From NCBI GenBank assembly GCA_021157815.1, contig JAGGVT010000176.1, forward strand, positions 1 to 9,548: a DNA stretch of 9,548 nt, written 5' to 3'. Within the stretch, counting starts at the first letter, position 1. Every line of letters starts with the position of its first letter. The position numbers were made by a program, and so were the translations under genes. Of this stretch, positions 3,058-9,548 are shown in pieces. A model generated the notes under the pieces. The model was not told the DNA's origin. It did not search any database and saw nothing but the letters and a program-made list of their open reading frames with translations. This DNA is from a bacterium (GTDB lineage Bacteria > JAJVIF01 > JAGGVT01).

Positions 3058-6021
3058 ATGCGAGTTTTTACCTTCCTTTTTGCAATGCTGTATATTGTTT
3101 TATTCGCAGCATCATGTTCATCCGGTGGTGGAGTTACCGCACCTGCTCCATCAGGCAGTTCAAATTTTCCGGGATATGATTCGCTGCCAGTACTTGCCAG
3201 TGATTATGACACCAATGGCAATCCTGTTTCAGGATGGGGTGTTTTAGGCATGTTCAATCTTTCCGGTTCTCTTGAAAGCGGAGACATCGAACTCACGCCG
3301 CTTCGAAACACCTCATTTTATGACACTCTTGAGGTTGTTGATATTTCGAACTTTCTTAACCTGGCTCCCTGTACCGATTGCGCGAAGGTTGAATCTGTCG
3401 AACTAACCAGTGAAAATCAACTTCAGGTGAACATTTCAATCAGGCATCCATTCGGCGTTGGTGACCCGTTAAAACCAATCTCAGGAAAAAACCGCGCTGA
3501 CCTTCATGTGTTCAACGTGGAGGGATTAATAATTGCGAACGACTCAACAGAAACGCCTGTTATGTTTACAGGGCTTGGGCAGACAGTCGGCAACGTTCAT
3601 CTTGTAAACGCCGATGGTTTCAGCCCATACCTGGATATGGTTATCGATGATATATTTCCAAACACTGCCACGGTTCATCCGTACAAACTTCACTTCAAGG
3701 ATTACACTATTGGGAATTTCGACTCCGCCAGTGAAACCGGTTTTACGGATATTCTCGCGCCGACCGGTAACCTTGTAATGGCTATGGGATGCGAGCCGGA
3801 CACGCAGCCGTATGTTTTCAATTTAAGTGGAATCGACAGGCTTGATTTCACCTATGCTGTCGGATGCACATACGCTGTCAGCTCTGAATCCAAATCAATG
3901 CGATTCTCTCCTGAATACAGAATCCCGCAGCACAATAAAAAAGCCGCGAGCGAGGTTCATGTTGCGATTGCCACTAATAATCTTATGGGCGGTGTATCAT
4001 CCAGCGACTGCACGTTGAATATAAGCGTACTTGACATGAACTACGGCGCTATTGTGGGAGAAAATCTGGATGAAATGCACGCGGCCAGCGATGTGGCATC
4101 GATTTCAGTCGATGTCGCGGGAGTAACATCATCGCCTGTTATTGAATCAAGCCCTACTCCGGTAAGCGGTTCGCCACGCGATCCTGCAGACCCTCTGCTC
4201 TATGAATTAACATTCACAAATTCGGCATCGGCGGCAGAGGGAACATACCTTGCTCTGATTAAGGTTCTCGATACATATCCCCCCGGTGAAAACTCCTCTC
4301 CGCTTCTTAGCGGCATGGATGGAATAGAGCGAGTTGGCCCTATTGAAAATCCTCTTGTCGGGCTTTTTAACATTTCTGAATTTGCCACTTATGCTGTTAT
4401 TGGAATTGATGTCGCTGCGTCAACCGTGCCGCCAGTCTGCGATATTCAATCAGCTCCGGATGGTCCCGGTGTTTTCACAAATCAAGACATTACGCTTGAC
4501 GGCTCCGGCTCTTACGACACCGACGGCACTATTGAATCATACGAATGGGATTTCGATTACGACGGTGTTACATTCGATATTGATGACACAGGCGCTGTTG
4601 TATTAACCAATTACAGTGCTGAAGGCGATTATACTGTCGCCCTGCGTGTTACCGATGATTTGCTCGCGAGTTCAATTTGCGCAAAGGATTTCAATGTAAC
4701 CGAATCGCAGTTGCCGGATGGCTTTATACAAATTGACAATGTGGTTCTGACCAGAAATGTTGTTATCGTGGAGGATTACAACGGTGTCCTTCATGCTTTT
4801 TACGGCAATCCCGCGGAACAGACCGTGCAGGAATCAAATATAATCCACGCATACAGCACCGATATGGGTAACACATGGCAAGGACATACAACACTTTATG
4901 AGATGACCGGCAACGGATGGCATGTTACGCTGGGAAGCGCATTTGCCCAGCTTGTCATGGCATATGCAACCGATGGCCCAACAATTTATATCGCATGGAG
5001 AGAAAAGAACTTGGGAACCAACTATCAACGCATGATGGCTGGTGAGGTTGACATTTCAAACCTGGCCGCGCCGTCAATGACAGAAATTGTGGTTCATCAA
5101 GGAGGTTACAACCATTCGTTTAACGGACCTCAGATTGTATCCACCAGTGATGGGCATATCATGATGTACTATATGCAGTATCAGGGAACAGGATCGTTCC
5201 ACCCAAAATACAAATTCGCGCCCACCTTTTCAATGCTTGAGGACTCCGTTACACCTACCCGTGATTTCAACGATTATCTTAACAACGGGCATCTGATATA
5301 TATCTACAACTCATCATCACCTATTCTGCTTGTTGATGATCAGGATAATATTCTATATACGATATCCGGACGGTTCTCTGGAATAAGCAATCCAAATCCG
5401 CCAGTGGGTGATTACAACACGGGTTATGGTTCTCTGATTGCGCGGTATAACAATTCCGGGAATTATTCATCCGGTGATGACTGGGATATTGTACAGCATT
5501 ATGGCCGTGACGGCATGGTCAGCTACTGGGATAATTACACTCAGGCATTCTGTGTCGATTCAAGCGGAACTGTGCATTGGGTGTTTGAGTATCAGGTCAA
5601 TGGCTCCGGTCCATTTGGAAACAATAGCGGTAATTACCAGTTTGTTTATGGCACCGGACTACTCAGCGGACAATGGGATTTCACCTATACCGATCCGATT
5701 CATCCTGATATGACATCAAGCGGCGCAAAATATGCTGCGGAATTTATTTACGCTTCAATTGACACAAATTCGCAAGGCGAAATCTGGATTACATATCAGG
5801 ATGCGTATCAGGATGGTTTTCCACCAGCTATCCCGGCGGAAATTTACTATACTCACTTTGACGGCGCCACGTGGCAGGATCCAATCGAGATGACAGTTCC
5901 GCCAATGGACCATGGTTATTATCCTTATATGTTCATATCATCATGGGATGCTATGTATGTCGTGTTCTCCGATGCAAAGATAGATGGTGACCCATGGTTG
6001 AAGGTGATAAACACACTGTAA
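3058..6021 (+). CDS. Large lipoprotein: N-terminal CxxC/SIRHPF module, PKD-like domain, BNR/sialidase-like propeller
   Basis: This 987-residue protein is predicted to be exported and lipid-anchored. Its signal MRVFTFLFAMLYIVLFAASC ends at lipidation residue Cys20. Residues about 40-455 form a module also seen in the gene at 7411. Its landmarks are CTDC (Cys105, Cys108), SIRHPF (127-132), GKNRADL (143-149) and AASDVASISVDV (343-353). Residues about 459-547 are PKD-like, with the hallmark GSGSYDTDGTIESYEWDFDYDG split around 482-503 and the closing strand YTVALRVTD. From about 550 to the end the sequence is Trp/Tyr-rich with repeated strands. It includes a perfect Asp box STDMGNTW (600-607) and later strands such as IYYTHFDGATW, as in BNR/sialidase-like beta-propellers. 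I see no sialidase active-site arginine triad, so a carbohydrate-binding or structural role is as likely as an enzyme. No C-terminal sorting domain is evident. The domain calls rest on motif recognition, and the biological function is unknown. Confidence 0.88.
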   Translation: MRVFTFLFAMLYIVLFAASCSSGGGVTAPAPSGSSNFPGYDSLPVLASDYDTNGNPVSGWGVLGMFNLSGSLESGDIELTPLRNTSFYDTLEVVDISNFLNLAPCTDCAKVESVELTSENQLQVNISIRHPFGVGDPLKPISGKNRADLHVFNVEGLIIANDSTETPVMFTGLGQTVGNVHLVNADGFSPYLDMVIDDIFPNTATVHPYKLHFKDYTIGNFDSASETGFTDILAPTGNLVMAMGCEPDTQPYVFNLSGIDRLDFTYAVGCTYAVSSESKSMRFSPEYRIPQHNKKAASEVHVAIATNNLMGGVSSSDCTLNISVLDMNYGAIVGENLDEMHAASDVASISVDVAGVTSSPVIESSPTPVSGSPRDPADPLLYELTFTNSASAAEGTYLALIKVLDTYPPGENSSPLLSGMDGIERVGPIENPLVGLFNISEFATYAVIGIDVAASTVPPVCDIQSAPDGPGVFTNQDITLDGSGSYDTDGTIESYEWDFDYDGVTFDIDDTGAVVLTNYSAEGDYTVALRVTDDLLASSICAKDFNVTESQLPDGFIQIDNVVLTRNVVIVEDYNGVLHAFYGNPAEQTVQESNIIHAYSTDMGNTWQGHTTLYEMTGNGWHVTLGSAFAQLVMAYATDGPTIYIAWREKNLGTNYQRMMAGEVDISNLAAPSMTEIVVHQGGYNHSFNGPQIVSTSDGHIMMYYMQYQGTGSFHPKYKFAPTFSMLEDSVTPTRDFNDYLNNGHLIYIYNSSSPILLVDDQDNILYTISGRFSGISNPNPPVGDYNTGYGSLIARYNNSGNYSSGDDWDIVQHYGRDGMVSYWDNYTQAFCVDSSGTVHWVFEYQVNGSGPFGNNSGNYQFVYGTGLLSGQWDFTYTDPIHPDMTSSGAKYAAEFIYASIDTNSQGEIWITYQDAYQDGFPPAIPAEIYYTHFDGATWQDPIEMTVPPMDHGYYPYMFISSWDAMYVVFSDAKIDGDPWLKVINTL

Positions 6022-6023
6022 AT

Positions 6024-6042
6024 CATTCGGATTACGCGAATG
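6024..6042 (+). terminator. Weak hairpin just after the lipoprotein stop
   Basis: CATTCG (6024-6029) and CGAATG (6037-6042) form a 6-bp stem with a 7-nt loop starting 3 nt after the stop codon. Only scattered T residues follow, so termination efficiency is doubtful. The much larger inverted-repeat element from 6069 may do more. Confidence 0.3.
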
Positions 6043-6132
6043 GATAAATTACTTTGAATTATTTTCAACAGAGGGGTTAAGAGCCTGCCGGAAAAGGGGC
6101 AAATTAATTATTAACGTTAGGATAACACATTT

Positions 6133-6165
6133 ACGTAGGGGCGGGTTTAAAACCCGCCCCTACGT
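6133..6165. repeat. 33-bp perfect palindrome
   Basis: ACGTAGGGGCGGGTTT and its exact complement AAACCCGCCCCTACGT flank a single central A, giving a 16-bp perfect stem (fewer once a real loop forms). No T-run follows, so it is a dispersed palindromic repeat rather than a textbook terminator, although it could block exonucleases. It is the first of two palindromes nested in the 6069-6335 element. Confidence 0.75.
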
Positions 6166-6184
6166 TGTACAGATGCTTTTCACC

Positions 6185-6284
6185 GGGTGCCGCCCACACA
6201 TCACGTCTTTTTGTGATTTGTGGGTGACGTGCAAATTCGTAGCAGTTCACCCATAAAGCCCGGAGGGCTGTATGGGCGGCACCC
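6185..6284. repeat. Branched, cloverleaf-like palindromic repeat
   Basis: A perfect 12-bp outer stem, GGGTGCCGCCCA (6185-6196) with TGGGCGGCACCC (6273-6284), encloses three smaller hairpins. The first is 6197-6204 with 6213-6220, with one mismatch. The second is TGGGTGA (6221-6227) with TCACCCA (6247-6253). The third is AGCCC (6257-6261) with GGGCT (6265-6269) around GGA. Alternative pairings exist, notably CCCATA (6250-6255) with TATGGG (6271-6276), which would lengthen the third hairpin at the expense of the outer stem. It has no tRNA features such as a T-loop consensus or CCA end. It may be a compound repeat or a structured RNA domain. Confidence 0.6.
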
Positions 6285-6335
6285 AGCGTTTTGAATCAAT
6301 TGGGCGCCTTTCCCGACATGCTCTTAAATCCTCTG

Positions 6336-6618
6336 CTATTTATTTATAATTCCAAACCGAAATCAGTGAAAACGTATCTTAACTAATGATGAACGAATGC
6401 CGTAACTGGCAATCGGACATCAAAAAGCGAAAATAAAAAATTACTAAATATTTTAAAATAACTATTGATTTTATTTGCTAAATCGTTTTTAATGTTATGA
6501 GTATTCGGGGAAACAGTTTTTACTGTAGCTTGGGATAAGACATAAGGCTTGAGTGATTTGCAGCATTAAGTCTGATTAAGATAGATTTAATGCACGTCAC
6601 GGAAAAGCCTTGTATATC
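6336..6618. other. AT-rich non-coding spacer
   Basis: This stretch lies between the nested repeat element and the regulator promoter. It is AT-rich and holds no credible gene. Minor dyads are ACAGT/ACTGT (6513-6526) and GCATTAA (6563-6569) with TTAATGC (6587-6593). The second lies about 30 bp upstream of the extended -10 promoter's -35 box and could be an operator, but nothing confirms this. Confidence 0.4.
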
Positions 6619-6647
6619 TTGTAAAAGTAAAGGGTATATGATATAAT
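6619..6647 (+). promoter_or_regulatory. Extended -10 promoter upstream of the XRE regulator
   Basis: TTGTAA (6619-6624) and a perfect TATAAT (6642-6647) are spaced by 17 bp, with TG at 6639-6640 forming a TGn-extended -10. The expected start, near 6654, would give a leader of about 130 nt before the GTG start at 6786. A weaker second -10, TATAAC (6747-6752), lies closer to the gene and lacks a good -35. Confidence 0.55.
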
Positions 6648-6785
6648 GCACGGGCTTAAAGAAGTTTGAAGAGATTTGATATAGATTTATATTTTTACAT
6701 GAAAAAAGATTCACCCTAAAACCGCTGAGGTAATGGGGTTAGTTAATATAACATGTACACAGTTCCATATCAGGAGGCAGTATAA

Positions 6786-7214
6786 GTGAAAGGCATCGGA
6801 CATAAAATTCGCGCGGCTCGATTTACGCGGGGAAAGGAATGGACTCAGAAGAAGCTCGCTGACGCAGCGGGACTTTCCCAGGGTTACATCTCCGCAATCG
6901 AGCGAGGTGATGAGTTTCCGTCATTGAAAGCTCTCAAGAGAATCGGGGAAGTGCTTGATTGCTCCCTCGGTTACTTCATTGAAGAGGAAAGTGAACTGGA
7001 TGCTCCAATCACCGAATCAAAGTACGCCCGACGCACCAATCAGGATGACACCCTTGAATCGGTGAAATCCAATATTGCCGCAATCTTCAAGGAAATGCTC
7101 CAGGATCAGCATGCGAACAACAAAAACAGCAACCTGAAACAAATGCAGGAAGACATTGTTGTTCTCAAGAAGAAAGTGGCAAGTCTGGAAACCAACCTGA
7201 AGAAAAAGCGTTAG
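6786..7214 (+). CDS. XRE/Cro-CI-family transcriptional regulator with C-terminal coiled coil
   Basis: This 142-residue DNA-binding regulator has an N-terminal helix-turn-helix (about residues 5-64). It includes the classical segment QKKLADAAGLSQGYISAIERG (21-41), whose second half is the recognition helix, and PSLKALKRIGEVLDCSLGYF, which completes the five-helix fold. The middle is acidic and polar. Residues 113-141 form a predicted parallel coiled coil with near-perfect heptads: Leu117, Ile124, Val131 and Leu138 at one core position, and Met120, Leu127 and Leu134 at the other. A dimerising zipper is therefore likely. It starts with GTG, supported by AGGAGG (6772-6777) at 8-nt spacing. It has no sensor or enzymatic domain. 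A terminator follows, so it is probably monocistronic. Lying between two paralogous lipoprotein genes, it may control one or both, or itself. This is inference only. Confidence 0.88.
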   Translation: MKGIGHKIRAARFTRGKEWTQKKLADAAGLSQGYISAIERGDEFPSLKALKRIGEVLDCSLGYFIEEESELDAPITESKYARRTNQDDTLESVKSNIAAIFKEMLQDQHANNKNSNLKQMQEDIVVLKKKVASLETNLKKKR

Positions 7215-7250
7215 GACATACTCGAACGCGAGAAAAGCAGTAATCAACAC

Positions 7251-7279
7251 CGGGGACAGTTTTTTGTCCCCGTTTTTTT
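7251..7279 (+). terminator. Intrinsic terminator of the XRE regulator gene
   Basis: CGGGGACA (7251-7258) and TGTCCCCG (7265-7272) form a perfect 8-bp GC-rich stem with a 6-nt loop, immediately followed by seven T residues (7273-7279). It starts 36 nt after the stop codon. This is the cleanest terminator in the window and separates the regulator from the lipoprotein gene downstream. Confidence 0.92.
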
Positions 7280-7328
7280 GTGCCTGCTTCATCCTTGTTT
7301 GCTATAACCTGGCCATTCTGATATTATC

Positions 7329-7347
7329 TTTCCAAATCGTTTGGAAA
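7329..7347. promoter_or_regulatory. Perfect dyad, candidate operator upstream of the second lipoprotein gene
   Basis: TTTCCAAA (7329-7336) and TTTGGAAA (7340-7347) are exact inverted repeats around TCG. The dyad is centred about 49 bp upstream of the TATAAT at 7387 and about 70 bp before the ATG at 7411. The size and symmetry suit binding by a dimeric helix-turn-helix protein, and the adjacent XRE regulator is a candidate. I do not see the same dyad upstream of the other lipoprotein gene. Confidence 0.4.
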
Positions 7348-7386
7348 ATCGAATAAACCATTGCACCAGTTTTGAGGTTGATAAAG

Positions 7387-7392
7387 TATAAT
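7387..7392 (+). promoter_or_regulatory. Perfect -10 box upstream of the second lipoprotein gene
   Basis: TATAAT lies 18 bp before the ATG at 7411. The nearest -35 candidate, TTGCAC at 7361, is a poor match at a 20-bp spacing. The predicted start near 7399 leaves only a very short leader that still holds the weak ribosome site GAAGG (7400-7404). The weak -35 would fit an activator-dependent promoter, but this is not proven. Confidence 0.4.
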
Positions 7393-7410
7393 CCAATGTG
7401 AAGGCTGACA

Positions 7411-9548
7411 ATGCATAATCAAATTGTAAAATTAACATTACTTGGATTCATTCTACTTTTCCTGATAACGGGATGCAGCAAGGGAAGTTAAAATCCGATT
7501 GCCGGAGGCACATCCCTCACCTATGCGGGAGCGGGGAATCTCGACACTCTTCCCATCATCGCTTTCGATGGCGTCACCGCGGTTGGCGTAATGGGCGGAT
7601 TCAACCTGACAATCTCACCCGACGGCACCAACGCTGATTTGGTTCCGATGCGAACATTAGCAATTGGTGAATCGTATATCGTAAGCGGAAAGAGTTATTT
7701 CGATACACTCCCCTGCAGGGATTGTTTCCGAATAAGCGGACTCGGATACGAGGACGGTCGAATAATTGTAAAATTCAGCATAAGGCATCCATTCCCGAAA
7801 GGAAATCCTGCGCTGCCCCCAACTGGTAAAAACCGTCTTGATCTCGACCTGTTCGACCTGGCTCTGGTTGTAAAGCCAATACCTCTTTCACCGCAGAATT
7901 ATCCCCTGATGAATATTAATATTCCGGAATATATTATTGAAAATCCTGATGGCTTCACGGATGAGCTTTCGAATGTAATCAGCGCTGATGTTGCTCTTCC
8001 TTATATGTTAGTCATGGATGACAGCGTGAGCGTTCCTCCATCGAGCACTTTCAACAAGTTCGAAATGGGGGCAAGCAAAGACTTCGAAGTCAAATTCCCC
8101 GTGCAATCGGGTGAAATTCTTGTTTTCGATTTGTATCTGACCTTCGGTTATGGCGCCAGCGCACTTTTTGATGATAGATTGAATCCGGTATATTACAATC
8201 CTGAGTTCAATCGAAAGTCGGCTTGGAAAGTGGAGGTGATTCCTCCGAACGGTACGAACCCTCCCACACAGGAAAACACATGGGATGATGCTCGTAGCGC
8301 AACTGTATATAAAGTTATTGTAAAAGTTTATGATTGGCAGATTGGCGCGAATGTTGACCCGAATCTGACTAATACAACCGACATTTATGCAGCGTCGGAT
8401 GTTGACTATGTAAGCGTTGAAATCCCGGGAATGACTCATGCGCTGAAACAGGTTGATGGGAACTCATACGTTCCCGGTGGAACCGGAATGCCGGATTCTC
8501 CTCTGGTTTACACAATTCCAATAGCGAATGAAAATCTTCTCGCCTCGGGTGAATATGTCGGTCTTGTTGAAGTTCGTGATGAGCGCGAACCCCAGGATTT
8601 TGCGCAAGGAAGAGATTATTTGATTCATTCGCCGGATGGTGTAACCCTGAATCAATATCAAATAGTGGGCTATAGAACTTACCAGACTTTTATCGCTACA
8701 GTTGTTACTGGAAGCATAAACCCTGGCAACCTCGTCTGGGCTAAACGCGCAGGAGGAACTGGTTGGGATGAGGGCAGGGGAATCACAACGCTTTCTGACA
8801 ATTCTACAGTCGTGACAGGATGGTTTCATGGATCAGTTACATTCGGTCTAGGCGAGTCGAACCCGACAGTCCTTACTTCCGCTGGAGATGAGGACATCTT
8901 CATCGCGCGGTATAATCCTGATGGAACACTTGCATGGGCCAAACGCGCAGGAGGTTCAAGTGATGATTGGGGCAGGGGAATCACAACGCTTTCGGACAAT
9001 TCGACAGTCGTGACCGGAGGCTTTGGTTATCCAGTTGGGGGATCAGCCACGTTCGGTCCGGGCGAGATAAATCAGACAGTCCTGACTTCCGCTTTGGGTG
9101 ATATATTCATCGCGCGGTATAATCCCGATGGGTCACTTGCTTGGGCTAAACGCGCCGGAGGGGCAATTTGGGATGAAGGCTATGGAATCACTACGCTTTC
9201 AGATAATTCGACAGTCGTGACCGGAGAGTTTAGTTACGAAGCCACGTTCGGTCCGGGCGAGATAAACGAGACAGTCCTGACAACTTCCTTCCCATATGGG
9301 GTTGGTGGCTTCATCGCGCGGTACAATCCGGATGGAACACTTGCATGGGCTAAAAGCGCTGGAGGGACAGATTATACTGTATCTCCACAATACAGTTATG
9401 GAATCACAACGCTTTCGGATGATTCGACAGTCGTGACCGGAAGGTTCACGGGAGAAGCCACATTCGGTCCAGGTGAGCCCAACCAGACAGTACTGACTTC
9501 CGATGGACCGGGCGATATCTTCATCGCGCGGTACAATCCTGATGGAAC
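7411..9548 (+). CDS. Lipoprotein with SBBP-like beta-propeller repeats, interrupted by an in-frame stop and cut by the window edge (candidate pseudogene)
   Basis: The gene opens with a lipoprotein signal, MHNQIVKLTLLGFILLFLITGC, with lipobox ITGC and Cys22. Codon 27 (7489-7491) is TAA. The same frame then stays open for 685 codons to the right edge, with no frameshift. Counting that stop as one codon, the later sequence has CRDC (Cys102, Cys105), SIRHPF (123-128), GKNRLDL (139-145) and a YAASDVDYVSVEI segment near 325-338. All align in order with the lipoprotein at 3058, so the N-terminal module is paralogous. From codon 443 it changes to tandem WAKRAGG...FIARYNPDGxLA repeats, as in SBBP-type beta-propellers of secreted proteins. 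The first in-frame ATG after the stop is at 7591. It lacks a ribosome site and would remove the signal, so a restart there is unlikely to give an exported protein. A recent nonsense mutation, a sequence error or read-through are all possible. Confidence 0.8.
8737..9548 (+). repeat. Tandem 66-70-codon propeller repeats within the second lipoprotein gene
   Basis: Units start at the Trp of WAK at 8737, 8935, 9142 and 9346, giving lengths of 198, 207 and 204 bp. A fourth unit continues past the edge; by its own spacing the next Trp would fall at about 9556. Conserved blocks in each unit are WAKxAGG, GITTLSD(N/D)STVVTG, ATFGPGE and FIARYNPDG. The length differences fall in the loops between them. 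Conservation is high even at DNA level (for example ACAGTCGTGAC and TTCATCGCGCGGTA), which points to recent duplication or gene conversion. Confidence 0.9.

Follow-up and report, generated by a model that had tools for sequence, protein, structure and literature searches.

Lipoprotein families that have expanded around a constant base and a variable domain are a known general kind. The SusD-like lipoproteins of Bacteroidota form very large paralogous sets at the outer membrane, where they are thought to bind different ligands; they have a helical (TPR-type) fold and are paired with a TonB-dependent transporter. The PE/PPE proteins of Mycobacterium tuberculosis join a conserved N-terminal module to variable C-termini, occupy around one tenth of coding capacity and are restricted to a clade.

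Here, we describe a family of this general kind that is unusual in its scale, its restriction to one phylum and the exchange of its C-terminal regions (or ‘heads’), starting from two genes, A and B, in a window (the whole stretch of DNA analysed) of 9548 bases. As with SusD, there is a very large per-genome set of paralogous lipoproteins, presumably also at the outer membrane, but the base is predicted by AlphaFold to be all-beta and inspection by eye of the tandem arrays in which many of the family genes of another genome (G002) sit revealed no obvious constant partner gene, such that the family is not SusD-like. The likeness to PE/PPE lies in a constant N-terminus, variable C-termini, roughly a tenth of coding capacity and clade restriction; fold, export route and envelope all differ, however: here the N-terminus holds a lipobox and a beta-sandwich, and folded domains can be recognised in the heads. 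The propeller repeats of LipL53-type SBBP lipoproteins (NF047494) and of DUF5122/delta-60 proteins resemble the head of gene B, and neither model matches the shared module. The best structural neighbours of that module (GH2 jelly-roll plus Ig, transglutaminase and SoxY-type Ig-like proteins) score at Z 5–6, which is background; the GH2 jelly-roll/Ig superposition has an rmsd of ~7 Å over the whole module, with no sequence link.

Two genes with a common base

The window is an entire contig, and the C-terminus of gene B is therefore missing. The features of the two genes are as follows:

3058..6021, + strand: gene A, a lipoprotein of 987 aa (module, PKD and C-terminal head), with a ggagg RBS at ~3045, before the ATG
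3073..4419, + strand: shared module of gene A; domain 1 at ~3175-3942, Ig-like domain 2 at ~3946-4419
3115..3117, + strand: cysteine codon of the gene A lipobox, FAASC
3367..3381, + strand: Cys pair of gene A, PCTDC
3436..3453, + strand: SIRHPF of gene A, including the near-invariant His
3484..3504, + strand: GKNRADL of gene A
4081..4110, + strand: AASDVASISV of gene A
4453..4662, + strand: PKD domain of gene A (PF18911, E=1.2e-10)
4663..6018, + strand: head of gene A, weak BNR_2
7411..9548, + strand: gene B, shared module plus DUF5122/delta-60 head, with one in-frame stop, ending at the contig edge
7441..8706, + strand: module of gene B (family profile, 424 bits)
7474..7476, + strand: cysteine codon of the gene B lipobox, LITGC
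7489..7491, + strand: in-frame TAA of gene B, five codons past the lipobox Cys
7711..7725, + strand: PCRDC of gene B
7777..7794, + strand: SIRHPF of gene B
8707..9548, + strand: head of gene B, DUF5122/delta-60 propeller repeats, incomplete

All of the motifs that a sequence-only reading had listed as common to the two genes were found, in the same order in both, and the relationship between the modules is far beyond chance (BLASTP, 27% identity over 382 aa, E=1e-23). The lipobox-anchored module that it proposed, at about 400 residues, is real and measures ~430, and the ‘membrane-proximal’ position that it assigned to it fits with the lipobox. In both genes a signal peptide precedes a lipobox (FAASC and LITGC) whose cysteine is the sole invariant column in a diverse 91-member alignment, as defines bacterial lipoproteins; the residue at +2 after this cysteine is mainly Ser, Gln, Ala or Gly.

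Beyond the module, the labels given to the C-terminal regions have had to be revised. For gene A, the PKD domain stands (PF18911, 41.7 bits, above the curated cut-off of 27) but the BNR-type propeller is weak, the head scoring 24.1 bits against BNR_2 (PF13088), under the curated cut-off of 31.4; no similar head was found among the family copies examined. Gene B does carry propeller repeats, but their proposed SBBP identity is weak (27 bits against the SBBP LipL53 model NF047494, far under its curated cut-off of 400), whereas DUF5122 (PF17164) reaches 47.4 bits, above its curated cut-off of 27, and on these scores the repeats are best called DUF5122/delta-60.

The TAA of gene B had escaped the sequence-only reading. 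The next in-frame ATG after it, at 7591, comes without a signal peptide, and this copy is therefore probably broken, unless the base call is wrong. Recoding as an account of the TAA was rejected: other copies show single TAA, TAG or TGA codons, and most are stop-free.

The DNA around the two genes has several features of its own. On the minus strand, 250-1959 holds genes of an ABC transporter of the phosphonate/phosphate type, among them phnC and one for a PhnD-like binding lipoprotein. Between genes A and B lies an HTH_3 regulator with a GTG start (6786-7214), just past which is a strong terminator-like hairpin with a T run (7251-7272). Also between the genes, 6184-6292 is a ~110-base element whose arms, GGGTGCCGCCCA...TGGGCGGCACCC, are inverted repeats, and of which approximately 39 or more further copies, 85-96% identical, occur in the genome among the best 40 of 104 candidates; it is a MITE/REP-like repeat. 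Directly upstream of it is a near-perfect palindrome, ACGTAGGGGCGGGTTTAAAACCCGCCCCTACGT (6133-6165), the core of which has a second exact copy near family genes in another locus (L131), and 6120-6310 as a whole folds far more strongly than shuffled sequences (z -8).

Conservation and fold of the module

Scans of 70 and 91 members against Pfam and NCBIfam gave nothing significant, searches against PDB profiles gave no match, and searches of open-access papers did not find the family described. The module is thus, by every library searched, a new family, in keeping with the sequence-only reading, which had not recognised it as a named one; neither of the outcomes that this reading had set against itself, a known family matching the whole module or a lack of relatives with differing C-termini, occurred. 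A candidate reading as an AID/APOBEC-like deaminase, prompted by weak hits to the PCxxC motif and for which we required H/C-x-E upstream of PCxxC plus a significant profile match, was rejected, the best E being 0.0024, in some members only, with no conserved H-x-E before PCxDC.

In the main subfamily the invariant or near-invariant residues are R78, C100, C103, H125, P126, R141, D143, L144, P285, D321 and D400 (module numbering, starting at window position 3073), and the Cys pair is 98-100% conserved. Across the family the pair is nevertheless dispensable: in G002 only 41% of copies keep its second Cys, whereas every copy retains the nearby His, and the pair is mostly gone in the short subfamily of the window genome. 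Of the two roles previously offered for the CxxC, a disulfide or a metal site, a disulfide would suit this pattern better than a catalytic metal site. The short form itself (L131-L157) is a diverged module of ~280-300 residues in ~30-40 genes of the window genome; the CxxC is missing in many of these and Asn often replaces His125.

AlphaFold gives a confident model of the module, in which an Ig-like domain comes after an N-terminal beta-sandwich (pLDDT 85, pTM 0.84; for domain 1 alone, pLDDT 89, pTM 0.87), which supplies the structure prediction called for at the outset. Fold searches against the PDB, with the whole module and with domain 1 alone, gave no confident match: the GH2 jelly-roll/Ig neighbour of the whole module has Z 6.2 at an rmsd of 7.7 Å, the transglutaminase and SoxY-type Ig-like neighbours Z ~5, and a viral jelly roll Z 6.6 to domain 1 (3.5 Å over 120 residues), all at background level. 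With PDB neighbours at this level, we make no claim of novelty for the predicted fold.

Copy number and distribution

Searching the window genome (G000) with gene A gave 91 matches, and a profile built from 70 copies gave 121; there are ~113 distinct family open frames, making up ~8.6% of 3.2 Mb, and in G002 (99% complete, four contigs) ~127, making up ~11% of the genome, both percentages being slightly high as they come from stop-to-stop lengths. With a broader profile (A3), and at most 150 candidates scored per genome, there were 137, 136, 138 and 120 matches in G000, G001, G002 and G003, respectively. The copy count that had been put forward as a check for the same genome, extended to four genomes of the phylum, gives 120-138 matches in each, with more than 100 module-sharing genes per genome bearing differing heads.

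Convincing matches occur in 4 of the 385 genomes searched, namely the four phylum members; with four candidates scored per genome the 381 non-phylum genomes gave no convincing match, remote relatives being possible beyond that depth, and the lone weak N-terminal matches in some of them (E ~3e-4) resemble noise from signal peptides. When GTDB contigs were scanned, two more loci (L079 and L080) came up, both on JAHIRU contigs. The bin to which these belong carries the label Nanoarchaeota and comes from Fennoscandian Shield deep groundwater, the sample label occurring in PMC8275790. These contigs are probably misbinned bacterial DNA; transfer into an archaeon is a possible alternative.

Omp85/BamA was found in all four phylum genomes, and a diderm envelope is therefore supported. 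LolCE-like permeases are present, scoring under the curated cut-off, and sorting of the lipoproteins by a Lol-like route is possible. The LptD model detected nothing in the four genomes. Taken with the presence of more than 100 such lipoproteins in every phylum genome examined, this could point to a structural coat, i.e. a protein layer on an outer membrane perhaps devoid of ordinary LPS, with the diversity of the heads being secondary. The absence of LptD carries little weight, however, as the same model also misses Bacteroides and one cyanobacterium used as controls, and a coat can usually be made from one or a few abundant proteins rather than more than 100 different heads; we regard this explanation as unlikely.

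Selection on the base and exchange of heads

Where modules are 65-80% identical as protein, their 4-fold sites mostly agree at 30-60%, near saturation, which indicates that the base is kept by purifying selection. Recent gene conversion as the main source of the similarity between bases was rejected on the same near-saturation of most 4-fold sites, with one pair (L039/L064) showing a tract in which 4-fold sites are 70-90% identical and for which conversion is the likely origin. This tract, together with the internal stops in gene B and a few other copies, might be expected if the family were a switchable store for antigenic or phase variation, in which gene B and other broken copies would act as silent donors; yet stops are found in only ~5 of the 113 copies in the window genome, and most copies run to full length and have a start and a lipobox of their own. 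Neither a silent cassette array nor a hotspot came to light, and we hold this account to be very improbable.

A tree built from 202 modules places the G002 copies in 15 clades interleaved with copies from the window genome (one clade having 41 members) and the sampled G001 and G003 copies in a single clade, although support for its deep branches is weak. The pattern suggests that the family was already multi-copy in the ancestor, with expansions within each lineage. Tandem arrays and lineage-specific clades would also be produced by non-adaptive proliferation of genes with little function, but the 65-80% conservation of the base protein despite near-saturated synonymous sites, and copy numbers that differ little across the four genomes, make this the account that we find hardest to credit.

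The heads are widely varied. In the window genome, tabulation of the C-termini, as had been advised, shows PKD, BNR, PQQ/BamB, SBBP, DUF5122, Kelch and LVIVD, as well as right-handed beta-helix, fn3, reelin-like and TIGR03790 types, with many giving no match, and those in G002 are similarly broad (PKD, FG-GAP, Kelch, PQQ, SBBP, BNR and PD40). The ‘variable beta-propellers’ of the sequence-only reading were thus rightly called variable but too narrowly drawn, as beta-helix, fn3, PKD-containing and many unclassified types occur too. Nameable types are mostly binding or propeller folds. Enzymes do include BNR, beta-helix and PQQ folds, and the family might be imagined as a degradative arsenal in which a common anchor carries mainly extracellular hydrolases or lyases; few named catalytic families are found among the heads, though, with PKD and generic propellers predominating, and we give this still less credence than a coat.

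Base and head have separate histories, because like modules bear unlike heads and vice versa: for modules that are at least 60% identical, 55 of 71 paralogue pairs have no detectable similarity in their heads, and 11 pairs with modules only 25-35% identical nonetheless have heads alike at more than 100 bits. DNA identity is high inside the module only, falling to background at both edges. Gene B provides an example. Its head is 63-68% identical to heads in G001, a genome from a different family (delta-60 heads are repeats, and a strong fold constraint could produce such likeness), where the modules reach no more than 23% identity to its own or go undetected by BLAST, yet copies in the window genome, including L048 with its PQQ head, match its module at 50-55% identity. 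These sequence comparisons show that a change of head without a corresponding change of base has happened often.

Discussion

Bringing these findings together, we think it probable that the family is an outer-membrane display repertoire, found phylum-wide, in which a fixed lipoprotein base carries exchangeable ligand-binding heads. In each protein, the signal peptide with its lipobox leads into a two-domain all-beta base of ~430 residues (~290 in the shorter form), which is followed by a variable head. The lipid would anchor the protein to the outer membrane, with the base serving as a standard ‘mount’ that may contact a constant partner or surface; the heads would face outwards and, going by the minority that can be named, bind different ligands, such as glycans, particles or other cells. 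The outcome would be a repertoire of more than 100 surface binders per genome.

Rather more tentatively, we speculate that the phylum may spend around one tenth of its genome on a combinatorial surface system, in which one conserved lipid-anchored mount takes heads that are mobile both between genes and between lineages, so that each species would have its own set of more than 100 receptors.

A profile of the module can be used to annotate proteins that are now called ‘hypothetical’ or ‘PKD domain’, and the family offers a testable case of head exchange across lineages. With its fixed base and swapped heads, it also amounts to a natural experiment on modular display, and a clean one. As one unnamed module accounts for about a tenth of coding capacity in the phylum genomes examined, it probably shapes how these cells encounter their surroundings.
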